NCBI GenBank assembly: GCA_902984215.1
Contig: CADWAF010004419.1
Span: forward strand, 1-18,340
Direction of reading: 5' to 3'
Origin: Willaertia magna
Lineage: Eukaryota; Heterolobosea; Eutetramitea; Acrasida; Naegleriidae
Length of the DNA stretch: 18,340 nucleotides
Shown: piece after piece, positions 5,197 to 18,340 of the stretch
Layout of the letters: every line of letters starts with the position of its first letter
Position numbering within the stretch: position 1 is the first letter of the stretch
Translations under genes and position numbers: made by a program
Notes under the pieces: model-generated
Told to the model about the DNA's origin: nothing
The model's input: the letters and a program-made list of their open reading frames with translations, nothing else
The model's database searches: none

Positions 5197-5448
5197 TTTT
5201 TTTTAGGCTTGTTAATTTTAAGATGTTCCTTGAAAATAATACTTTTAATAATTGTCTATTTATTAACACTTATTAATAATACTTTCTAAAAACATGGGCT
5301 CTTTCAGTAAGTTGAAGGAAATTAACGTTAATTACTTTACTTTGAATTTGTTTGAATCAAATAGATTTGCTGTCAACTTTGTTTTAAATTAAGATTTTAA
5401 AAAATGTAGATGTATAGGCGGGTATTCTTCTTCTTGTTCTGTCAAAAG
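5197..5448. promoter_or_regulatory. Divergent promoter spacer with a 14-bp palindrome
   Basis: This is the gap between the divergently transcribed FBXO3-like and receptor kinase genes, so it should hold both promoters. The clearest element is a perfect palindrome AATTAACGTTAATT at 5320-5333, with a central CpG in otherwise CpG-poor DNA. A decamer TAAGTTGAAG at 5308-5317 sits just before it and also occurs at 2222-2231. No TATA box can be singled out in such AT-rich sequence. The 3' edge overlaps the earliest possible start of the kinase gene. Confidence 0.4.
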
Positions 5449-8400
5449 ATGTCCGATGTTAAAATCATTATAATGCCAAAAATCTTTTCAAAAAAACGAA
5501 ATAATGAAATGAAATCACATTTAAAGATAAATAATAAATTACTATTTCTTATACTAATCACTACCACATTATTGATATTGCAATTTACATCAATATCATT
5601 AGTTTTAACACAAACAACAAGTAATAATTTTAGACCTTTCATATCATGGCTACAATATTGGAAAATGAATGATAATGCACTTGACATAAAGATTGAAGAT
5701 CTGTCACTATTTGGAGAGAATCCGATTCAAGGCTTTACATTTATTGGAAGTTTCAAGGGTTCTTTAAATATTACTAGATATGAAGGTAATCAACAAGAAC
5801 TAGAAGCGCAATCATCATCTATACATTTCATTCAAAACGAAGGAAATTATAGAAATGGTTTTCTCTTTAAATTTAATTATGAAACATTTGATCAAAATTT
5901 AGAATTTAATAGATTAGAACAATTTGATTGGATAAGAAAGGTTTATTCGCCAACAAGGGAAGTTGAAATAATTGATTTAAATATGTTAAATTTTATTAAC
6001 GCTACTACGAATGAAGATGATTTCCTTTTTGTTTTGTTGGGAAAGGCTACAAAGCTTTCATCATCTTCTTCTAAAGGAATATCGGAAGAAACCTTTTCAT
6101 TAGTTTTTGAATCGCACGCTAATAAAAGGGTTATCCAACAAAGTACAGAAGATAAAGTAGTAAAGGAAATTCAAATTACGGGTAATACTGACATTGCGGT
6201 TAACTTTATAGCATTATATAAATCTAATGGAGAATTATATAAAACATTTTCAAATACATCTTATATTGATTTTACAAATTTAAATATTGTAAATTTAGAT
6301 GGAAATGTTTATTTAACAACATTAGCAAAATCTTCAGAAAGTACAGATATAATAACTGATACTTTATATTTAATTAATATGGATATAACTTTAAATGGTG
6401 GTAATAATATTATTAAAATTTATTTTGATAAAAATAATTATTTATCATCTGATTATATTTCTTCTTTTGGAATTCAAGTCAACTCAGTTACAATAGATGA
6501 AGAAGCGGCTTTTATTTATATAGGTGGTACTTGTAGATATACAATTACAGATGACAGTTATGCTAGTGCTTGTGTTTATAAAGTAAATATGAATAATGGT
6601 ACTATAATATGGGGTTCTTTTGGTTCTGGAAAGTATGAAAATTCAATTTTAGGCATTGAGAAAGTGCTTGGTGTAGAGGAATTGATTGTTGTGGTATCTC
6701 CAATACATATTTGGGAGAACGTTGTTGTTCGTGACGAAACTCAAAGAGATTTATTTTATATTATTTTAATGTTAGATACTAATAATGGACAAGTTTTAAA
6801 GATTGATTCATTAGCTGACTATAATCAAGGTAAATTAAAGAGATTAATGATCGATCCAATTGACAGAAATGTTTTATTTATACAACAATTTTCTTTTTAT
6901 TTTTTTAATTGGGAAGAAACTATTTATCTTTCTTTACCTATTAACATGAATTCTGAATTTATTGTTTTGGAAGATGAAATTTTTGTTTTAGGACATACTA
7001 TTGGTGATAATGGTACAGTGTTATGTGACGATAGAGAATTAAAACCAAATATGATTTATAGTTATTGGTGTAAATTACAACCTATAGATTCTTTATCTTA
7101 TCTACAAGTTATTTCACCAAGATTTACAATAGAAACACCAAAGCAATGGAATATTTTTGTTAGTAGTAATTGTTCACATGCCAACAGACTTTTATTTAAT
7201 TTTGGTACAGAATTTATTAGTTATGATGCTGATTTTTATAATATTAAAGGATTAGAAATAGATTTATATGATGAATTAGGTATTGGTACATCAAATTGTG
7301 ATTTAACATTATGGGAGATTGATAACATTGATTTAGGAGATGATAGAGAATTATATCATTCAATTTTAGTTACAACAGAAGGAACAATTTATAGATTAGA
7401 TACAAATTTAATTCAAGAGAATTTACAAATACCTTTTGTTGGAATTAGTAATAGAAAAGATATTTATTTTGGTGTAAATTTTAGGAATTCTACTTTAGGA
7501 AGAAGTATTATTCCAAAACCTATACAAAAATATATTTATTACAAAACAAGTACAAATAGTCAATTAACACCATGTTTATTAATTGGTACTACTTGTTATA
7601 TGCAAATTTATTCTTCTAAACCAAATAGAATTACATTAGAATTTCATGGAGAATATAAAGAAAATAGTACTCACCTTATTGGAAGGAGAAGTATAAATAT
7701 TTATAATACAGGTATTATTATGAATTCCAGTTCCAGAGCATCACTAATAGAAAGTTCAATAACTATTAGAATTCATCCACAATTTGATATTCCAATGTTA
7801 AATAATTTTGAAAAGGAAATATTTTGTGTTGTTGGAAAAGAAATTAGAAAATTATCTTTTAGTAGTTTTGTTTATTTACAAGGATATGTTAAGGAAGTTA
7901 ATTGTGGACAAATATCTTCTAATTTTGAAGGTATTACATTAGTTAATTTATTTGTTCAAGTTAATGATTCATATAGTGCAAATATTGGAGATAGTTTCAT
8001 ACCTTATTACTTTTTAGGAAATACTAGAAGTATTATTGTTAATAATATATTAGTTAAGGTATTTGACAAAAGTCCTTTTACATTATCTCTATCAGTGGAA
8101 CATTCAACAATATTTGATAATTCAGACATTTTACAAGTATTATATCTTAAATATGACAACAAAGTTTCTTTAATTAGAAATATAAAATGTTATATGATGA
8201 CTTACTGTGTATTATCTTTTACGATAGATAATTATGAATACAATGGTGGAAGATTATCGTTACAATTACTTTACAAAGATTATTTTGATTCGATACCAAT
8301 TTCTTTAGACACAACCTTACCGTTAATTCCTAAAGCAGATTTTATTTTAACAAACAAAGAACAATTTAATGGCACAATTATAATGGACTTTGAAACTAGT

Positions 8401-11400
8401 ACTATTAGACTGAAATTTAACACTGATTATAAATTTACATTTAACTCTACAAATAGACTTTTTTGTCAAGTAAACGGAGATGAACCCTTAGTAAATAGAC
8501 TTTTTGCATTAAATGTTTTAGATAATGATAATGGTACTTACTATTGTGAAATTACTAGATTTGGACTAGCCAATGAAATTGTGGACAGATTGGTGTCAAT
8601 TGTGTTACAAACTGGTATTGTAGAAATGGATTTAAATTATTTAGAAAAGATTTCTTCAACTGATTTTAAATTAACAATGTTAGATAGAAGTAATGTATAT
8701 CAAATACTCCCTGAATATGTAACACCTTTTCAAACTTCTTATGTTACTGTCGGGGCTAATTTAACAAATTATTTCTCTTATTTTGATGATCAAACTTTAT
8801 TTAAATTATGTTGTCAATATGGTATTACTGATCAAAGTTCATTATCAGTAAGGGATATGATATGTGATGGTGTGAATGTTATTTACGATAAATTAAAAGA
8901 TGAAATTGTAAATTGTCCAATGACTTTAATTGCAAATGACGATACTATTGATTTAAGAGTTAGATTATTCTTATATTATATTCCAAAACAATTTTATTAT
9001 AATTTTGGTGAAACAAGATTAAAGGTAAAGAACTTTAGAGTTAGTTGCGATAATGAAAAATGTCATTGTAATGAAGGTTATAATGGAACATACTGTGAAA
9101 ATGTAAAATGTTTTGGAGGATTCACTAATACTTGTTCAGGACATGGTACTTGTATATTACCTGATGTTTGTGCTTGTATGCCAGGTTACTATGGAGAACG
9201 TTGTGAAAAGTTTGTAAAGTGCTGGTTAAGTTCAGATTTTAGTTATTTTAGATGTAGTGCTCCAGATGAAGTTTTACAAAATCAATTTTGTACAGAATAT
9301 TTATCTCTTCCTACCTTAGATCAAGTCAACTTTGACGCTTGTACAATTTATAATCAAACAGATGTTAGAGTAGATTTATTGTATGATTCTTATTTGGGTT
9401 CTAATTCAAGCGAGTTGGTATATTTAAGATTGCCAAGTGAAAATATGAGTGTGTTGCAAGTACCTTTAGAATATAAATCGGTTCCACCTTATCCAGATGT
9501 TTCAGTTGTTGCTACACAATCAGTAGGGGCCACTGGTGAGGTAACACTGCTTGGGGTTTATTCTAAATCACCAGAAGATAGAACTTTAAGATTTCATTGG
9601 GAATTGGTTGATGTGATCCCTTCTAATGGAAATGTAGATCCAGATGCAAAGAAGGCCTTGGCTGATTATATTTACGGTTATGGAAATTCTATTTTAGTAT
9701 TACAACCTGATATTCTTAATGTCTCAAATGCTTATGAGACAAAATATAAAGTACAACTAACAGTTTCCAATATATTTGGTAATTCAGGGACATATACAAG
9801 TACATTTTCTAGATTTTCTACTTGGAGAGCTCACGTTACACCAGATTCTCCAATAAGGTTGAGTTGTTATAGGTTTGAGTCTTGCATACTTGTCATATTT
9901 AAACGTATTCCTCCAGCACTTATAGGCACTAGTACACCAAAAGTTTTTACAACATGGTATTCAGGATTTGATTTCCCATTAAAGAATACATTCGATGCTC
10001 CTTCTGCGTTAATGATTGATCCATACACAATACCTTTTATTAATAGCAGTTATAATGTTGATGTTACTTTATCGTTTGATGTGGATTCAAAGAAAACATT
10101 TGTTAAAGATTCAATAACTATCATTGTACCTCAAAGTCAATTGAGGTTACATATTATTGGTGGTGATTGTAGTGTACAAAAAACACTTTCTAAAACATTA
10201 ACAGTGGATTATGAAATCAAAGATTTTACAGATGAAGAAAGAGGCACAAAATATAACGTTTATGAAGAAATTTCCTGGAAATGTATAAGTGATAATTGTC
10301 CTGACTTTTTCAATAGAAGGCTTGCAAATGAAAAAGATAAACAAATTGATGTGACAGTGAGTGACTTGGTGAGTGATAAAATTTACGTAATTGAGTGTAA
10401 AGTTAAAGTAGTGGTTGAATGTAAAGGCTTCACTATCTGTAAATATACCTATGAAGATAGTGTTAGTACAAAATTAGAAATAGTTGCCCACGAAATCCCT
10501 CTCATTAGATTTTCTGATTTTCCACAATTACTTAATAATGAAAACTTTTTAATATTTGGAAGCGTTGAATATAATCTTCAAACAGTTACTGTCACTAACA
10601 TTAAATCTGAATGGCAAATAATTGAAGGAGAAAGAGTAATTTATTCAGAACCTTTCGTCAATAGACCAATGCTACTTAATTCAGATTTATTAATACAAGG
10701 TGGTCAATATGCCGTGCGTCTTAGAACTAATGCTCTTACAGAAACGAATAATACAATTTCAGCCTATAAAGACGCTGTCTTTACTGTAGCTCTTTCTCCT
10801 GATAGAGGCAGTTGTGTATTGAATCCAACAGTTTCAAAAGCTTTTGATGACAGTATGGTTTTGGAATGTATTCAATTTTCTGGACTAAATATTAAATATT
10901 TTATTTATTATTTCAATTTAGTGACAGGTGGAATTGTAGATATTTCTCCTTCTGCCACAACCTCACCTTATGCTTTAGAATTAAGATTACCACCCTTAAA
11001 GAAGATTGTAGTTAGAGCTATTAACCATTATAACAGTTTTACAGAATTTGATATGAACGTAAATATTACAAATCCTTTAGATAATATAAATAATATAACA
11101 GATATTGTAGATTACTTTAAAGAAAGAATGAAATCTTTAGATAGTTCCCTTACTTCTAAAGGTTATAGAAAGTTTTGTATTGGATTCCAAGCCTTACTAG
11201 AAATGTTTTTATTAAAATTAAAGTCAACCACATTAAATGTACAAGATGCAAAAGCCGTGAATGGTGTATTTGAAATATTCTTTAATAAGATTTATGAATT
11301 AAGTGTAGCTTTAAGAGATCCAACATGTATTAACTGTTGGCCTCTCTATTTTAGAAAGATATTTTCTTTATTATCAACTTTATATTTACAAGACATTGTG

Positions 11401-13275
11401 GAGATTAATTATTGTAGTGGTAGTTTTATAGAATCTTTAAAACAAATTATTGTACAATTAAATTCAAAGCTTTTAAGTAGAGATATTAGTAATCGTTATA
11501 TCAATGAAATTAATGTGATGATTACAAAGATGATTGCCCATTATAACAAATGTAATACAATTAGAGATCATACAACCACCAATTCACATTTATATGATTT
11601 AGTGGAAAGTTTTACTCATTTACCATTAAGATATATCACACCTGTAAACACTTATCTATTTGGTTCTAACTTGACAGATTTTATTAAAATTCAAAAATTA
11701 CAATATGAAATTGCTAATATAGATGGTTTTATATTTGATCATTGCATTGTACATCTTACTGTACTGTCAGCAGAACAATTACCATCTTATGTTAGAGCAT
11801 TTTTAGTTCTTAATTATAAAACTGTAAATGAAACAAATAATGTCAAATGGAAATCTATTATTTCAAAAGCTAATTTACAAGAAGAAGTTCCAAATAAGAA
11901 TGATTTATATGTTCTTACAGATTTAATATATTTTAAAGCAAGTACACAACAATTTTCAGAAGAACAATCTAATTTTAATGAAGTAATAGAAGATAATATT
12001 AAAACAAATGTTACAGTTTATTATAAGGATCCAATCGTTAAGGATATTAAGAATTTACAAAAGAAATATTTAAAGAACTATTTTTGTGCGTTATATGATC
12101 CAAAAACATTAAAACTTAAATTTACAAGCTTTTTATTTGTCGGCGATTCCTTATCCTGTACATTTGATGGAGTTACATTTAATTCCTACGTTACACTATT
12201 AAGAAATGATACAAAAGAACCAGATATTAATAATGATCATATCATTGCTATTGTAACAATCTTAATTGTATTAATTGTTTTACTGTTAGTTGCAGTAGCC
12301 ACTGGTCTATTAGTTTGTTATTATTTAAGAAAGAAAAAGAAGAAATCATTGGAATATAAATCATTTGAAGATCCATACATTCCACTAGGAGAATTAATGA
12401 TAAGTAAAGATCAATCTAGATATGAAATTATTAGAAAAGTAGGGGGCGGTTCTTACGGTTCCGTTTTTACAGTTAAAGAAAAGTTAAAACCTGAAAAGGG
12501 AGAGTTAGCAATGAAATTAATTAACATTACAGGAGGATCAGAAAATATTAACGTTGCATTACGTGAAGCAATTCAATTAGCAAAATTATCTCACAAACAT
12601 ATTGTAAATATTAATGAATGTTTTATATGGAATGAATCCAACATGTTATCATTAGCTATTGTAATGCCTTACATTAAGTTGGGACATTTAAGAAAAATTA
12701 TGAAAGAATATGCACCTCTTTCAATTCCAATAATTTATAAGATTTGGTTACAAATGGTTGATGTTTTAACATTTTTAGAAGAAAAGAATGTTATTCATAG
12801 AGATATTAAACCTGAAAATATTTTAATTTCTGAATTTAATCCAGATAATGAACAAATTAATGTTTTATTATGTGATTTTGGTGTAGCAAATGAATTTTCT
12901 AAAGGTTCAGCAGCTGCAACGTTTTGTGGAACTCAAACCTTTATGGCTCCAGAAATTATTTTAATTGATAAATCTTCTTCTTTAGATCGTTATGATGCAG
13001 AAGCTGACGTTTGGAGTTTAGGTTGTGTAATTTATCAATTATTTACAAATGATTCAGAAACTGTTTTATCTTCTTTTGTTATTCAATATGGTGATGGAGA
13101 GAATTTAAGGAAAATGATTTTACAGAAAATTAAATCATTTAATGAAGATTATTTAGAACATGAAAGATTTGAACAATTATTAGATTTATTAATGATTATG
13201 CTTAGAAAAAATACTGAAAGAAGAGCTAGACCTAATGAATTGTTTTTAGAATTATCTTCTTTACAAATAGAATAA
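5410..13275 (+). CDS. Giant single-pass receptor-like Ser/Thr protein kinase (EGF, REJ-like, GPS-like ectodomain)
   Basis: The longest reading frame encodes 2621 residues without introns. Met34 (nt 5509) gives the best signal peptide (NNKLLFLILITTTLLILQF follows); Met14 (5449) has the best poly-A/TC start context, so the first 13-33 residues are doubtful. The ectodomain begins with a beta-propeller-like region (about 60-700). EGF-type cysteines follow: Cys1218, 1220 and 1229, then a full module at Cys1234-Cys1265 (CSGHGTC, CACMPGYYGERC). A REJ-like region (about 1330-1850) and a helical Cys-containing region come next. A degenerate GPS-like segment lies at 2226-2264, directly before the membrane span at about 2278-2304, and a basic stop-transfer follows. 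The cytosolic kinase domain (2338-2615) is complete: GGGSYGSV 2345-2352, Lys2369, Glu2386, HRDIKPEN with Asp2465, DFG Asp2489 and APE 2513-2515. It should phosphorylate Ser/Thr. The ligand is unknown. Many N-glycosylation sequons fit an extracellular location. Confidence 0.9.
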   Translation: MYRRVFFFLFCQKMSDVKIIIMPKIFSKKRNNEMKSHLKINNKLLFLILITTTLLILQFTSISLVLTQTTSNNFRPFISWLQYWKMNDNALDIKIEDLSLFGENPIQGFTFIGSFKGSLNITRYEGNQQELEAQSSSIHFIQNEGNYRNGFLFKFNYETFDQNLEFNRLEQFDWIRKVYSPTREVEIIDLNMLNFINATTNEDDFLFVLLGKATKLSSSSSKGISEETFSLVFESHANKRVIQQSTEDKVVKEIQITGNTDIAVNFIALYKSNGELYKTFSNTSYIDFTNLNIVNLDGNVYLTTLAKSSESTDIITDTLYLINMDITLNGGNNIIKIYFDKNNYLSSDYISSFGIQVNSVTIDEEAAFIYIGGTCRYTITDDSYASACVYKVNMNNGTIIWGSFGSGKYENSILGIEKVLGVEELIVVVSPIHIWENVVVRDETQRDLFYIILMLDTNNGQVLKIDSLADYNQGKLKRLMIDPIDRNVLFIQQFSFYFFNWEETIYLSLPINMNSEFIVLEDEIFVLGHTIGDNGTVLCDDRELKPNMIYSYWCKLQPIDSLSYLQVISPRFTIETPKQWNIFVSSNCSHANRLLFNFGTEFISYDADFYNIKGLEIDLYDELGIGTSNCDLTLWEIDNIDLGDDRELYHSILVTTEGTIYRLDTNLIQENLQIPFVGISNRKDIYFGVNFRNSTLGRSIIPKPIQKYIYYKTSTNSQLTPCLLIGTTCYMQIYSSKPNRITLEFHGEYKENSTHLIGRRSINIYNTGIIMNSSSRASLIESSITIRIHPQFDIPMLNNFEKEIFCVVGKEIRKLSFSSFVYLQGYVKEVNCGQISSNFEGITLVNLFVQVNDSYSANIGDSFIPYYFLGNTRSIIVNNILVKVFDKSPFTLSLSVEHSTIFDNSDILQVLYLKYDNKVSLIRNIKCYMMTYCVLSFTIDNYEYNGGRLSLQLLYKDYFDSIPISLDTTLPLIPKADFILTNKEQFNGTIIMDFETSTIRLKFNTDYKFTFNSTNRLFCQVNGDEPLVNRLFALNVLDNDNGTYYCEITRFGLANEIVDRLVSIVLQTGIVEMDLNYLEKISSTDFKLTMLDRSNVYQILPEYVTPFQTSYVTVGANLTNYFSYFDDQTLFKLCCQYGITDQSSLSVRDMICDGVNVIYDKLKDEIVNCPMTLIANDDTIDLRVRLFLYYIPKQFYYNFGETRLKVKNFRVSCDNEKCHCNEGYNGTYCENVKCFGGFTNTCSGHGTCILPDVCACMPGYYGERCEKFVKCWLSSDFSYFRCSAPDEVLQNQFCTEYLSLPTLDQVNFDACTIYNQTDVRVDLLYDSYLGSNSSELVYLRLPSENMSVLQVPLEYKSVPPYPDVSVVATQSVGATGEVTLLGVYSKSPEDRTLRFHWELVDVIPSNGNVDPDAKKALADYIYGYGNSILVLQPDILNVSNAYETKYKVQLTVSNIFGNSGTYTSTFSRFSTWRAHVTPDSPIRLSCYRFESCILVIFKRIPPALIGTSTPKVFTTWYSGFDFPLKNTFDAPSALMIDPYTIPFINSSYNVDVTLSFDVDSKKTFVKDSITIIVPQSQLRLHIIGGDCSVQKTLSKTLTVDYEIKDFTDEERGTKYNVYEEISWKCISDNCPDFFNRRLANEKDKQIDVTVSDLVSDKIYVIECKVKVVVECKGFTICKYTYEDSVSTKLEIVAHEIPLIRFSDFPQLLNNENFLIFGSVEYNLQTVTVTNIKSEWQIIEGERVIYSEPFVNRPMLLNSDLLIQGGQYAVRLRTNALTETNNTISAYKDAVFTVALSPDRGSCVLNPTVSKAFDDSMVLECIQFSGLNIKYFIYYFNLVTGGIVDISPSATTSPYALELRLPPLKKIVVRAINHYNSFTEFDMNVNITNPLDNINNITDIVDYFKERMKSLDSSLTSKGYRKFCIGFQALLEMFLLKLKSTTLNVQDAKAVNGVFEIFFNKIYELSVALRDPTCINCWPLYFRKIFSLLSTLYLQDIVEINYCSGSFIESLKQIIVQLNSKLLSRDISNRYINEINVMITKMIAHYNKCNTIRDHTTTNSHLYDLVESFTHLPLRYITPVNTYLFGSNLTDFIKIQKLQYEIANIDGFIFDHCIVHLTVLSAEQLPSYVRAFLVLNYKTVNETNNVKWKSIISKANLQEEVPNKNDLYVLTDLIYFKASTQQFSEEQSNFNEVIEDNIKTNVTVYYKDPIVKDIKNLQKKYLKNYFCALYDPKTLKLKFTSFLFVGDSLSCTFDGVTFNSYVTLLRNDTKEPDINNDHIIAIVTILIVLIVLLLVAVATGLLVCYYLRKKKKKSLEYKSFEDPYIPLGELMISKDQSRYEIIRKVGGGSYGSVFTVKEKLKPEKGELAMKLINITGGSENINVALREAIQLAKLSHKHIVNINECFIWNESNMLSLAIVMPYIKLGHLRKIMKEYAPLSIPIIYKIWLQMVDVLTFLEEKNVIHRDIKPENILISEFNPDNEQINVLLCDFGVANEFSKGSAAATFCGTQTFMAPEIILIDKSSSLDRYDAEADVWSLGCVIYQLFTNDSETVLSSFVIQYGDGENLRKMILQKIKSFNEDYLEHERFEQLLDLLMIMLRKNTERRARPNELFLELSSLQIE

Positions 13276-13396
13276 ATTTCATTGAAACAACTCTAATTCT
13301 TGTTGTTTCTGAAAATTTTCTGTTGTTGTAAAATTTTGGGTATTTGCATGATTTTCCGATTTTTAGGAGAAATTTAAAAAATTGTTTTTCAAAAAA

Positions 13397-14701
13397 ATGT
13401 CACAACAAGAGCTCGCAATTGGTTTTAAACAAAAAATTAATGACAACGAAAGTGATCAAGAAGACGAGGACGCCATCGAAGATTATGAATTTGTTTTTAA
13501 TGAAGATAATATCAAACAAATTTACAGTAATGCTTTTTTTAATGATGAATTTGTAGTTATTTTAACACAAACAGGAAATGTTTATTGTAAAGGTTATGTT
13601 GGTGAAAATGCAGAGTTTGAAGGTAGTGGTGATTTAGAAAATAATGGATTTCAAAAAATTAAACAAATTTCAAATGCAAAATTTATGGCTACTGGTATGA
13701 ATTTTATAATTGTGATTGATGAAAAGAATAATATTTATGGTTGTGGCTGTGATTATGGTCAATTTGGAAATTTTAAAAAAAAAGAATTTTCAAAATTTAC
13801 AAAAATAATGACTTTACAAAATGTTGAAATGAATATAAAATTTATAACTTGTGGTTCAGAAAGTGTATTTATCATTACAAAAAATAATAAAATTTTATTT
13901 GGAGGAGATTCAACGGTAATTAACGGAAAAGAACAACCAATCATTGGTTTTCAAGAAATTATAGAATTACCAAATAAAATTAAAGATTTAAAAGCAGGAT
14001 TTTCACACGCTATTCTATTAGATTATTTTGGAAATATTTATGGAAGTGGAAAGAATAATGAAGGACAATTAGGGTTAGAAAATTTTAATGAAATTTTAAC
14101 TTGTTTTACAAAATTAAATGTTCCATTTAAAGTTAAAAAAATTGCTTGTTGTGCAACTGGAACGTTATTACTAAGTGGTAATAATAATGATAATAGTAAT
14201 TACAATAATAATTATTATAACAACGAGTTGTATGCAAGTGGTTTTAATGATTATCACGAAAAACAAATAATTGGTTTTAAAAAGATTACTTTATTTGGTT
14301 TAGAAAAATCAATTTGTTCTTTTAGATTTTTACAACAAGGACACGAATTTGCCTATTTTTCTTTAAATAATGAATTTTATTGTTTAGATAATGAAAATTT
14401 ATTTACAAAGGAAAATTGTAAAAAATTGGAGAACAAGTTGACTAGAAAGTGGAAATATCAATGCGTAGTTGTTTTTGAAGATTTTTATTTCTTTATTGGA
14501 AGTAATTGTAAAGTAAATGGAAAATTAAAAAATTGTAAAGTTTATGAAAGATTATATTTACAATTATTGGATAATATTTCAAATTGTTTATTTGATATTA
14601 CAATAATTGTAAATAATGATGACAAAATAATAATGAAAAGAAAGGATACAACAACATCTTTACAAAACAACGATTTGAAAAAGAGAAAAATTATTAATTA
14701 A
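13397..14701 (+). CDS. RCC1-repeat protein with possible truncated BTB tail
   Basis: This encodes 434 residues from the ATG at 13397, whose context AAAAAAATGTCACAA matches other starts here; the in-frame codon 15 nt upstream is TTG, not ATG. The acidic N-terminus (about 12-35) is followed by RCC1-type beta-propeller blades, in the pattern hydrophobic stretch, GN/NN-x-Y, G-x-G, GQ(F/L)G. Clear blades are at about 88-125 (NNIYGCGCDYGQFGNF) and 198-230 (FGNIYGSGKNNEGQLGLENF), with degenerate ones at 40-70, 148-185 and 245-300. The Asn-rich loop at 262-276 is low complexity. Residues 388-412 (LLDNISNCLFDITIIVNNDD) look like the first strands of a BTB domain, but the chain ends soon after with a basic tail. 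RCC1 repeats serve in Ran exchange factors, ubiquitin-ligase adaptors and other scaffolds; the specific role cannot be assigned. It follows the receptor kinase by about 120 bp. Confidence 0.82.
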   Translation: MSQQELAIGFKQKINDNESDQEDEDAIEDYEFVFNEDNIKQIYSNAFFNDEFVVILTQTGNVYCKGYVGENAEFEGSGDLENNGFQKIKQISNAKFMATGMNFIIVIDEKNNIYGCGCDYGQFGNFKKKEFSKFTKIMTLQNVEMNIKFITCGSESVFIITKNNKILFGGDSTVINGKEQPIIGFQEIIELPNKIKDLKAGFSHAILLDYFGNIYGSGKNNEGQLGLENFNEILTCFTKLNVPFKVKKIACCATGTLLLSGNNNDNSNYNNNYYNNELYASGFNDYHEKQIIGFKKITLFGLEKSICSFRFLQQGHEFAYFSLNNEFYCLDNENLFTKENCKKLENKLTRKWKYQCVVVFEDFYFFIGSNCKVNGKLKNCKVYERLYLQLLDNISNCLFDITIIVNNDDKIIMKRKDTTTSLQNNDLKKRKIIN

Positions 14702-14826
14702 AAAGGTCAACTTAAATAATTTGTTCATCAATTTGACAATTAGATGGAAAAATGAAATATTAAACAACCTATTATTGAACTAGTTCTGTAACCTTCAATC
14801 AATCAAACCAAATCATCATTTAAAAA

Positions 14827-15936
14827 ATGTTTAAATTGCGTCACTTTGTTTTTTGGTGTAACTTTTGGCAACTGTTTGTCTTTACGTTTGTGGCCATAAC
14901 CGTTTTCTCTTCTTTGTCCTTCGCAAGAAATTATAAAATTGACAACATTAACAATAACAACATCATCCCTGGTCCCGTTCAAACAATTCAAACAGCAAAG
15001 TACACTAATGATAGATTAACAAAACTTCCTCCTATCTATTGGCAACAAAAACAACAACAAAAACAAAAAGAAAATGATTTTATTATTACTGAGCTGCTTG
15101 GTTCTGACATTAATATTGTTAAAATTAATAGAAATAAAAGATATCAAACAATTTTAGGATTTGGATGTGCATTAACTGAATCATCTGCTTTTGTCTTTTC
15201 ACAATTACAACAAAATAAACAAAAAGAATTATTAGATTTATTATGGTCACCAAATAAAGGATTAAATTATACATTTGGTAGAATTCCAATGAATTCATGT
15301 GATTTTTCATTAAGCACATATAGTTGTGACGATGTTGAAAATGATTTTAAATTAAATTATTTTAATATTAATAGAGATAAAAAATTTATTATTCCTTTTG
15401 TAAAGGCAGTTTTAAATAATTTAAAACAATTTCAATTAGAAAATAATTTTAATTTATTTTTTAGTCCTTGGTCACCACCAGCTTGGATGAAATATAACCA
15501 CAATATGAATGGGAGTAGTAAGCCAATTGGCTTAATGAATGTGAGTCAAATTTTAGATAGCTGGTCACTTTTCTATTCTAAATTTATTACTGAATATAGA
15601 AAAGAAGGAATTAATTTTTGGGGATTTACTATCCAAAACGAACCAGAAAATGCACAAGATTATGAGGCATGTTTATATACACCAGAATATACAAGAGATT
15701 TTATTAAAAATTATTTAGGTCCAAGAATTAAGAAAGATCATCCAAATATAAAGATAATGATTTATGATCACAATAGAGATCATGCATTTAATTGGGCTAA
15801 AATAATTTATTCAGACTTAGAAGCATCTAAATATGTTGATGGAATGGCAATTCATTGGTATAGTTCAGTAAGTGACGGTCCAGATTTAGAAGATTATAAT
15901 ATTTTGATAAATAAAAAATTAACAAAAGTAGTATAA
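14827..15936 (+). pseudogene. GH30 glucosylceramidase-like gene, 3' part missing
   Basis: The family hydrolyses glucosylceramide in lysosomes or extracellularly and is usually about 500 residues. Here 369 residues are open. A secretory signal covers about 1-33 (hydrophobic FTFVAITVFSSLSFA). Conserved GH30 blocks follow: GFGCALTESSA (111-121), YTFGRIPMNSCDFS (148-161), SPWSPPAWMK (213-222), and FTIQNEPEN with the acid/base Glu272. The next block, DGMAIHWYSS (338-347), is present. The family pattern is lost after about residue 358 (nt 15,900), so the strand with the nucleophile Glu (ATEAC-like motif) and about 180 further residues are absent. The stop at 15934-15936 falls inside a palindromic repeat. 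I see no glucosidase C-terminus downstream in any frame. The remaining coding part has no frameshift or stop, so the break looks recent, or reflects an assembly join. A truncated product would be catalytically dead. Confidence 0.85.
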
Positions 15937-16050
15937 ATTTATACTTTTTTATTTTATTTTTAAAAAAATTAACAAAAGTTTATTTTTAAAAAAATTAACA
16001 AAAGTTTATTTTTAAAAAAATTAACAAAAATAGTATAAATTTATACTGCT
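15914..16050. repeat. Direct-repeat and palindrome cluster at the GH30 break
   Basis: ATTAAC recurs at 15918, 15968, 15994 and 16020. The two inner copies head identical 26-bp tandem units (15968-15993 and 15994-16019), made of ATTAACAAAAGTTT plus a T-rich then A-rich tail. The outer two head 28-bp near-identical blocks 102 bp apart (15918-15945 and 16020-16047), which differ by one base (G at 15928, A at 16030). Each outer block ends in the perfect 16-bp palindrome AGTATAAATTTATACT (15930-15945, 16032-16047). The cluster begins exactly where glucosidase homology stops. Confidence 0.85.
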
Positions 16051-16483
16051 TTTTTAAAAAATAAAAAAATATTTTTAAAAAAAAAATTCAAATTTAAATA
16101 TATTTTTATTAAATATTGATTTTATTTCTTTTAAGGCCAAAAGTATTAAAGTTTTTAAACAATTAATATTAAAGTTACTAAATATAACAATTTATAAAAG
16201 TTTATAATCTAAACAAAGTTTAATTATACTATAAAAAAAAATGTCTCTAGTGATTAATAGTTGTTATATTATTAAATAAAAGAAATAACTAATTGATTGA
16301 TTCTTATATTACTGAATAAAAAAGAAAAAAAAAATAAAGCATTAAAAACTATGGACTTTAATAAGAGTAATTATGAAGATCAACTTCACAAAATGATAAC
16401 TATATAATAATAACAATTAAATTTCATGAAATAAAGTATTTTTATAAAATAAAATACTAAAATAAAAGTTTATCTAAAAAAAA
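16051..16483. other. AT-rich stretch without a recognisable gene
   Basis: No open frame of useful length and no RNA gene is visible. A start-like sequence, a run of nine A residues before ATGTCT, occurs near 16231-16247 and resembles the one at 16475-16489. The reading from it stops after a dozen codons. A short readable stretch around 16342-16410 (ALKTMDFNKSNYEDQLHKMI) could be more of the broken RCC1-like sequence that follows, but this is a weak call. Confidence 0.4.
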
Positions 16484-16840
16484 ATGTCTAAAAATCAATT
16501 TTTTTATCTTATTGACAATCAACAATATGATAAAGAAAAAGTTTATAATTTATTAAATAAAATTATAATAAAACAAATAACATATAGTTATTATCATATA
16601 ATTATTTTAGATCAAAATAAAAATATTTATATTTTTAGTAGAAACAATGTTAGTTAATTAGAATTAGGTTATAGTAATGAAATAAAATATTTTAAACAAG
16701 TTAATTGAATAATAAAATTAAATTAATTAGAGTAGGTAGATTTTTTATAATTGTAATAACTTTATAAAATGAATTATATATTATTTATATATTATTTATA
16801 AATTCTTTTACAGAAGAAAAATTTTTTTAAACTATTGTAA
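16484..16840 (+). pseudogene. Broken RCC1-like gene fragment
   Basis: An open run of 57 codons starts at ATG 16484 with the AAAAAAAAATGTCT context and stops at TAA 16655-16657. It contains an RCC1-type blade, YYHIIILDQNKNIYIFSRNN, and after the stop the same frame continues with LELGYSNEIKYFKQVN. In the RCC1 pattern the stop sits where the Gln of GQLG belongs, the preceding Ser replaces Gly, and Glu replaces the next Gly. A second blade appears one frame over from about 16714: VGRFFIIVITL, TAA at 16765-16767, then NELYI, much like NELYASG in the intact RCC1 gene at 13397. There is thus at least one frameshift and several stops. The remnant fades by about 16840. Intact paralogues probably exist elsewhere in the genome. 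Confidence 0.66.
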
Positions 16841-16948
16841 AAAAAATACAAAAAAATATTCTTTAAGGTTTTTGTTGACTTTAAGGAAGTATTTTTAAGT
16901 TAATGAAATTTTTTTTAAGTATTTTTTTTACTGGCCAAATTATTTTTG

Positions 16949-17146
16949 AAATTAAAAAAATATTAAATATTCACTATAATACTATCAACTTAATACTATC
17001 AACTAATATTATTAACTAATATCATCAACTAATATCATCAACTAAATCTCCAACCAAATATCATTAACCAAATATCACCAACCAAATATCATCAACCAAA
17101 TACTATTAATCAAATATTATCAATCTATTATTTATCCACTAATTAA
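16949..17146. repeat. G-free segment containing a 13-14 bp tandem repeat with C/T variation
   Basis: No G occurs on the plus strand from 16949 to 17146 (198 bp). Between about 16978 and 17125 there are roughly eleven head-to-tail units of the type AATATCATCAACT, then AAATATCATCAACC. Most differences between units are C versus T (ATC/ATT, CACC/CATC/TATT, ACC/ATC), plus one-base length changes. No coding function is evident. Confidence 0.8.
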
Positions 17147-17173
17147 GTTATTTATTTAAATAAATATAATTAA

Positions 17174-18340
17174 TTACAAATTTAAACTAATTCTCCTTCC
17201 TTTTCTTCTTTTTTTAATTACTATTGTATTATCGTTATTATTTTGATTATTGATTTTTCTTTTATTGATGTTTATATCTTCTTTAATTATAGTTTCTTCT
17301 AAAAAAGAAGAACTTATAAAATTAATTATTTGTTGGTCAATTTGTTTTTTTTATTAATTATTAATCTTGTTCTTTTTCACTTATATGTTTTTTTTATAAT
17401 TGTTAATTTTTATTATTTATATTCTCATAAAAAAATAAATATGAATTATGATCAAGAATATATAATTTAATTTTACTAATATATACTTTATCAACACTTT
17501 ATTATTCTACTTATCTTTATTTACTTGTTTCTAAGTATATTACTTTTATTGTATTATTATTATATAGTTTTAAAATTTGAGCTTTTTTACTTAGTACTTA
17601 ATTAATTAATTAATTAATTAAGTAAATTTGATTTAATAGTAATTAAATATTTAACTAATACTTCTTGACTTATTTTAAAATTTATTAAATTAGTTTTTTT
17701 TAAATAATTTTTATTATTTTGTGTGTTTTTTTTGAAAATATTATTTTGAATAGTTTCTTTTAATATTTTTAATTTTATTACTTTTTTAATCAATGTATTA
17801 TCTTTTAGTTTAAATGATTTATAGATGAAATTCGATTTATATTTTGTAACTGAATGAATAGTTTTATTATAATTATCTATAACTAATAACAAAAATTCAG
17901 TTTAATTATTTTGTTTTTTTTAATTTTTAATTTTAGTACTATCTTTATAGTTTTATTAGCTTTTTCTATAAATAATTATAAAATAGGAACTCTTAAATTG
18001 TTATATACAATTTTAATATCTTTTTCATTAATATATTGGGAAATTATATGGTTTTTGAATTTTGGACTATTGTTGTAATGAATAATAATAATATTTTTTA
18101 TATATCTATCTTCTTTTAATTTACTTAACATTGTCTCAAGTTTATCTTTTATAGTATATGTTTGTTTGTTAGTTAATATTGAAGCTATTATATTTAGAAA
18201 AAGCATTAACCATTATTAAGACGTGTTTGAATTGACAATAAAAAGGTAAATTAAAGCAATCAACAAATATAATTATACAACATTTATCAAGACATGTATT
18301 CTGGATTAGGTTACTTTTTATATTTTATTGATGAAAATAA
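17174..18340 (-). pseudogene. Decayed rve-type (DDE) integrase of a retroelement or Maverick-like element
   Basis: Read from 18340 downwards this is the catalytic and C-terminal part of an integrase, broken by stops and frameshifts. A first frame gives IIFVDCFNLPFY, with Asp at 18261-18259 as a candidate first catalytic residue, then KHVLIMVNAFSKY (about 18228-18190). After a frameshift, an open run of 76 codons from 18206 gives LTNKQTYTIKDKLETML and HYNNSPKFKN; Asn at 18074-18072 lies where DNGxEF integrases have the second Asp. The run ends at TAA 17978-17976, but the frame continues to FIEKANKTIK with the candidate third-acid Glu at 17966-17964. A third frame carries DNYNKTIHSVTKYKSNF (about 17880-17842), matching the YN-T-H-x-TG-Y-P region. 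The tail ends in a basic stretch, IKKRRKGRR, and a stop at 17176-17174. The element continues beyond the window; no terminal repeat is visible. Confidence 0.68.
17595..17624. repeat. Perfect 30-bp palindrome of TTAA repeats
   Basis: TAC, a run of tetranucleotide TTAA/AATT repeats, and GTA read identically on both strands over 30 bp. It lies in the 3' part of the integrase relic, just after the 92-codon open stretch. A simple-repeat expansion would explain it; cruciform extrusion is possible but not shown. Confidence 0.8.

Follow-up and report, generated by a model that had tools for sequence, protein, structure and literature searches.

Our analysis revealed that, in the genome of Willaertia magna, retroelement copies that are dead or unconstrained, and likewise scraps of genes attached to repeats, have undergone a loss of C and G in favour of T and A; the loss affects both strands and every sequence context. 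Relative to A↔T change, it has been far faster in this DNA than at the silent sites of genes or in pairs of element copies with intact reading frames. The best reading of the pattern, to which we assign a probability of roughly 0.6, is that 5-methylcytosine decays in silenced DNA and that this decay also affects gene scraps adjoining repeats. The stretch analysed, here called the window, has a length of 18,340 nucleotides and is one whole contig (C721); the genome searched comprised 19.24 Mb on 894 contigs, and every contig whose length was listed is longer than 10 kb, so that short, repeat-rich contigs probably lay outside it. Willaertia is given as the sister of Naegleria (PMC11702301).

Layout of the window

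The original prediction, made from the letters of the window, had described two unrelated repeat relics dominated by C-to-T and G-to-A changes. The features of this region are listed below.

15897..16132, no strand assigned: high-copy AT-rich repeat after the GH30 frame; several contigs open with similar stretches
16477..16781, plus strand: RCC1-like relic, the 5′ part of a gene, with C/G-to-T/A damage; start codon at 16484; 81% identical to an intact ORF on C354; directional transitions 32:2
16782..16961, no strand assigned: AT-rich sequence separating the gene relic from the repeat, aligning neither to the C354 gene nor to the C227 and C52 copies
16962..18290, minus strand: integrase-bearing repeat relic, with copies on C227 (79%) and C52 (two blocks, 81% and 77%); transitions dominate
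16974..17130, no strand assigned: imperfect short tandem repeats in the element end, whose units differ mainly by C/T (read by eye from sequence and alignment)
17895..18279, minus strand: disrupted frame of integrase type, containing the TAA at 17976 and the AAC at 18072-18074, matched in two pieces by tblastn with the C208 integrase ORF (E 4.5e-14)
18294..18340, plus strand: 47-base tail, identical at 46 of 47 positions to the C354 RCC1-like gene further along its length

The TAA and AAC codons located in the prediction are present, including the TAA codons at 16655 and 16765 on the plus strand, and comparison with the C354 gene shows Gly replaced by Ser and by Glu and a stop in place of Gln at 16655. 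The integrase identity of the minus-strand relic holds as well, since the only intact integrase ORF that the genome yielded, on C208, matches the minus strand at about 18279-17895. The description as two unrelated repeat relics was right for the integrase-bearing repeat; the RCC1-like fragment belongs, as a dead copy, to a gene family and is not a mobile repeat.

The single-copy genes that had been taken as adjacent to the relics are perhaps not their true neighbours, because a frame for a GH30 (glucocerebrosidase-like) protein at 14824-15936 ceases to match its W. magna homologue near 15896. Its protein shares 99% identity with W. magna ABK040_007555 along 36% of the query length, and 50-62% with further proteins from Willaertia and Naegleria. 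The frame agrees with ABK040_007555 up to that point, then diverges and stops where the high-copy AT-rich repeat starts. The right part of the window may contain an insertion or an assembly misjoin. A DNA search of the genome for a second haplotype of positions 13200-16476 found none for the stretch as a whole, the matches being to paralogs and repeats. The AT-rich repeat carries two copies of a 16-base palindrome, AGTATAAATTTATACT, at 15930 and 16032; it occurs twice in 197,790 other bases, and part of it recurs in copies of the short element described below. Positions 5410-13275 form one open frame of 2621 amino acids with EGF-like, REJ and C-terminal protein kinase domains, encoding a receptor-kinase-like protein.

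Damage spectrum in repeats and controls

As a measure we used the loss of C/G by transition relative to A↔T change, P(T|C)/P(A↔T). Compared with the intact C354 ORF, the RCC1-like relic carries T/A at 32 sites where the gene has C/G (17 C>T and 15 G>A), the reverse being found at 2, so that 32 of the gene's 71 C/G in aligned columns are lost; the same comparison contains 11-12 A↔T changes depending on the alignment, 4 other transversions and one 10-base gap. When polarised with outgroups, the relic branch carries 17 losses against 2 gains, and the C354 gene is assigned 12 gains, which we read as partly wrong polarity. The integrase-bearing repeat differs from the C227 copy at 183 sites (150 transitions, 22 A↔T, 11 other; 150:33), from the main C52 block at 111 (84, 22 and 5; 84:27) and from the second C52 block at 35 (28, 5 and 2; 28:7). 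The predicted dominance of C-to-T and G-to-A changes is therefore borne out in both relics. These blastn pair comparisons, and those with C386 and C398 below, cover matches with E 1e-20 or better.

For the window repeat the ratio P(T|C)/P(A↔T) reaches 25.4 (17.4-41.1) and 25.7 (16.4-45.4) in a MAFFT alignment. It is 18.8 for the C227/C52 pair, in which transitions, A↔T changes and other differences number 103, 72 and 31 by blastn and 100, 29 and 5 by MAFFT. In three RCC1-like paralogs that are intact, the ratio is 5.9 (4.1-8.6) at third positions and 4.9 (2.5-13.7) at fourfold sites. Ratios of the older copies are lowered by saturation, because half of their C is already lost. Two further controls were sought: for the spacers of tandem gene paralogs, as noncoding DNA, the blastn matches of the paralogs end about at the gene ends, and a DNA search of the genome returned no close paralog of the BTB/KCTD-like gene on C227 (a name given from reading the sequence).

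The damage extends to several unrelated repeat families beyond the window and to both strands. In a short element, about 730 bases long and unrelated to the window repeat, eleven copies show P(T|C) of about 0.46 and A↔T change of 0.045 (here and in the context counts, only sites more than two columns away from any gap are included), and four pairs have P(T|C)/P(A↔T) of 10.0-19.6. Site pairs incompatible with one tree amount to 4263 of 9101 for transitions versus 28 of 124 for A/T sites; a high incompatibility of transition sites is expected if the same C changed independently in many copies. This element, traced at L032 4650-7650 and on C441, C389, C566, C604, C27, C253 and C425 (matches with E 1e-25 or better), recurs with its two halves adjacent, and on C208 a 2.1 kb stretch with an integrase frame sits between them, which suggests either deletion derivatives or an insertion; for the C208 element, 12 stretches of 82 matches were fetched.

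Old copies are not pure, as many transversions stand alongside their transitions: by blastn, the window repeat and C386 differ by 28 transitions, 30 A↔T and 7 other changes (28:37), and C398 and C52 by 8, 22 and 13 (8:35). Such copies agree with plain AT-biased neutral decay of dead DNA, in which C-to-T would merely be the commonest mutation, as do the GC content of 9-22% in intergenic and relic DNA and the loss of C at gene third positions, which runs at roughly six times the pace of A↔T change. The ratio of about 25 in the window repeat against 6 in genes speaks against this explanation, as do two dead gene copies that lack a C-to-T excess (C388, 15:19; C193, 6:17).

Young reverse-transcriptase copies

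The clearest comparison comes from young copies. Among 28 reverse-transcriptase (RT) segments, fetched from 76 matches and compared in pairs at 75% identity or more, only three pairs exceed 97% identity (C274/C492, C42/C489 and C65/C729). All 44 of their differences are transitions, with no gaps and no A↔T change. By codon position they are distributed 21/15/8, fewest at the third, so coding selection does not explain the pure transitions. RT pairs with intact frames have transition to transversion counts of 19:5 (C822a/C822b, 96% identical with open frames kept) and 55:27 (C311/C74), mainly at third positions. The 44:0 of the young pairs differs from the 74:32 of intact-frame element pairs (Fisher, p 4e-6), from the 18:20 of gene fourfold sites (p 5e-9) and from the 65:60 of gene third positions (p 1e-10). 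The chance of zero transversions in 44 changes is 1.5e-7 at the intact-element rate and 3e-13 at the gene third-position rate, which argues against plain neutral decay. AT-biased decay does not suffice to explain the young copies and must still contribute to the old ones; as the explanation of the pattern we regard it as improbable.

Distant outgroups polarise the 44 young changes as 24 losses and 9 gains, with 11 uninformative, and we estimate that the 9 gains lie at about the level of outgroup noise. In the trio C148, C148b and C766, losses to gains are 11:10, 23:3 and 10:3, respectively.

Strand and sequence context

Both strands are hit alike. The young RT pairs have 23 C>T changes at 533 sites and 21 G>A at 595, and the corresponding fractions in the window repeat are 0.56 and 0.55. 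Editing of retroelement cDNA by an AID/APOBEC-like deaminase would account for C/G-to-T/A changes and for retroelements being among the targets, and was set aside on this strand symmetry; gene scraps are affected too, and we consider such editing very improbable.

Context preferences are mild. In the window repeat CpG is changed at 8 of 12 sites, CpA at 0.59, CpT at 0.52 and CpC at 0.52; the short element gives 0.62, 0.49, 0.46 and 0.26 for CpG, CpA, CpT and CpC, and the young RT pairs 7/74, 18/395, 10/432 and 9/227 in the same order. CpG is highest, with a mild excess, and CpA is at most about twice CpT, so none of the three data sets has a strong CpA preference. The TpA/ApT index is 0.97-1.06 in repeats versus 0.90-0.92 in genes and RT segments.

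These counts bear on repeat-induced point mutation (RIP), one of the two causes named in the original prediction. A RIP-like process would recognise duplicated DNA and actively mutate its cytosines by DNMT1 or some deaminase. Such a fast process fits the 44 transitions and absent A↔T changes of the young copies, and fungal RIP resembles the Willaertia case in that repeats change from C/G to T/A on either strand and that gene copies are affected as well. A DNMT1-family enzyme is also present in the genome, and fungal RID belongs to the Dnmt1 family (PMC12730594). Unlike RIP in Neurospora crassa, which is reported to target CA (PMC12730594), the change is almost free of context in the young pairs. 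Similar duplicates also persist: RCC1-like paralogs of 82-92% identity over about 1 kb are intact or unbiased, and C822a/C822b lack the signature at 96%, which speaks against a homology trigger. Damage grows with A↔T divergence instead of arriving at once, and decay looks gradual, with C/G loss in older copies going along with the slower A↔T clock; neither a burst nor triggering in a sexual phase is evident in Willaertia. We set aside fungal RIP proper on the lack of strong CpA preference and on the undamaged intact duplicates of 82-96% identity, and a RIP-like process in the wider sense appears unlikely to us. We hold equally doubtful that Willaertia, perhaps heteroloboseans generally, evolved independently of fungi a context-free RIP-like mutator that uses DNMT1 alone on silenced repeats and the gene copies touching them.

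Gene scraps next to repeats

The C-to-T excess is limited to silenced or dead copies and absent from intact genes and elements, with the qualification that numbers are small and that the dead copies C388 and C193 lack it. Most intact RCC1-like copies have 20-26% GC, with transitions balanced against their relatives. A second damaged relic, C56b, shows directional transitions of 85:16 against C377, together with 28 A↔T and 26 other changes (54 transversions among 155 differences). Its gene match stops near query position 714-727, and from about 724-736 onward at least 8 other contigs match; both biased relics, that of the window and C56b, thus adjoin dispersed repeats. The two unbiased dead copies are C388, with pieces spread over three frames, and C193, with one frameshift and with 6 losses and 17 gains on its own branch, which differs from the 17:2 of the window relic branch (Fisher, p 4e-5). 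The death of a gene copy by itself is therefore insufficient, and repeat contact seems to matter. That repeat contact and not death alone drives the damage of gene scraps is a lead, not proof, as two copies stand against two. The 47-base tail has lost none of its C/G and sits right where the element match ends; it is either a remainder of the gene beyond the element or a misjoin at the contig end.

Methylation machinery and comparison with other systems

A search of the genome with PF00145, for the cytosine methyltransferases that the prediction had proposed to look for, found two genes only, one DNMT1-like and one DNMT2-like. The DNMT1-like gene on C319, joined across two introns, has RFD (5e-9), BAH (5e-11) and methylase (2e-55) domains and is closest in PDB to DNMT1; its N-terminus runs off the contig. 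The enzyme is predicted to be able to keep DNA methylated. Three SRA domain matches lie above cut-off. Matches to Tet_JBP below cut-off occur in two frames (L045 1189-1980 and L046 1270-1971, both on the minus strand) and could represent TET-like dioxygenases.

In Naegleria gruberi, four C contexts are reported to be methylated equally, with enrichment in repeats, DNMT1 enzymes only and more methylation in younger than in older elements (PMC12344493). This repressive all-context 5mC is the likeness closest to our case, in a close relative with DNMT1 only, targeted repeats and all C contexts alike. The accessible part of that report measures methylation and describes no mutational footprint, whereas the Willaertia case is known from the footprint alone (PMC12344493). 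Among the titles and beginnings of abstracts that we found on RIP, methylation or deamination in protists, none reports a C-to-T footprint in heteroloboseans.

On the strength of DNMT1 and SRA in the genome and of repeat methylation in N. gruberi, methylation followed by deamination is taken as the likeliest cause. Deamination of methylated repeats, the second cause originally named, gains indirect support from these observations; fungal-type RIP does not, given the sequence context and the intact duplicates. Silenced elements would be methylated in all C contexts, as in N. gruberi, methylcytosine would deaminate to thymine with incomplete repair, and the methyl mark may extend into neighbouring gene scraps, which we propose as the reason why the RCC1-like relic beside the element is equally damaged. 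Against decay of 5-methylcytosine stand the 11:10 of C148, the 9 gains and 11 uninformative sites among the young changes, the mixed old copies, the 54 transversions of C56b/C377, the undamaged 47-base tail and the 12 gains on the C354 gene.

Transposable elements of plants and vertebrates undergo a methylation-linked C-to-T decay in which transitions outpace other changes. The Willaertia case is alike in that transitions accumulate in silenced repeats faster than other changes. It differs in context, since decay is mostly at CpG in vertebrates and weighted towards CG/CHG in plants, while in Willaertia the CpG excess is only mild.

If decay of 5-methylcytosine is the cause, a heterolobosean would keep a heritable mutational record of all-context methylation, and past methylation would become readable from plain genome sequence. 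Element death in these amoebae would proceed largely through one type of change, and part of the extreme AT richness of their repeat-rich DNA would be explained. Should an active mutator be responsible instead, defence of the RIP kind would extend beyond the fungi.
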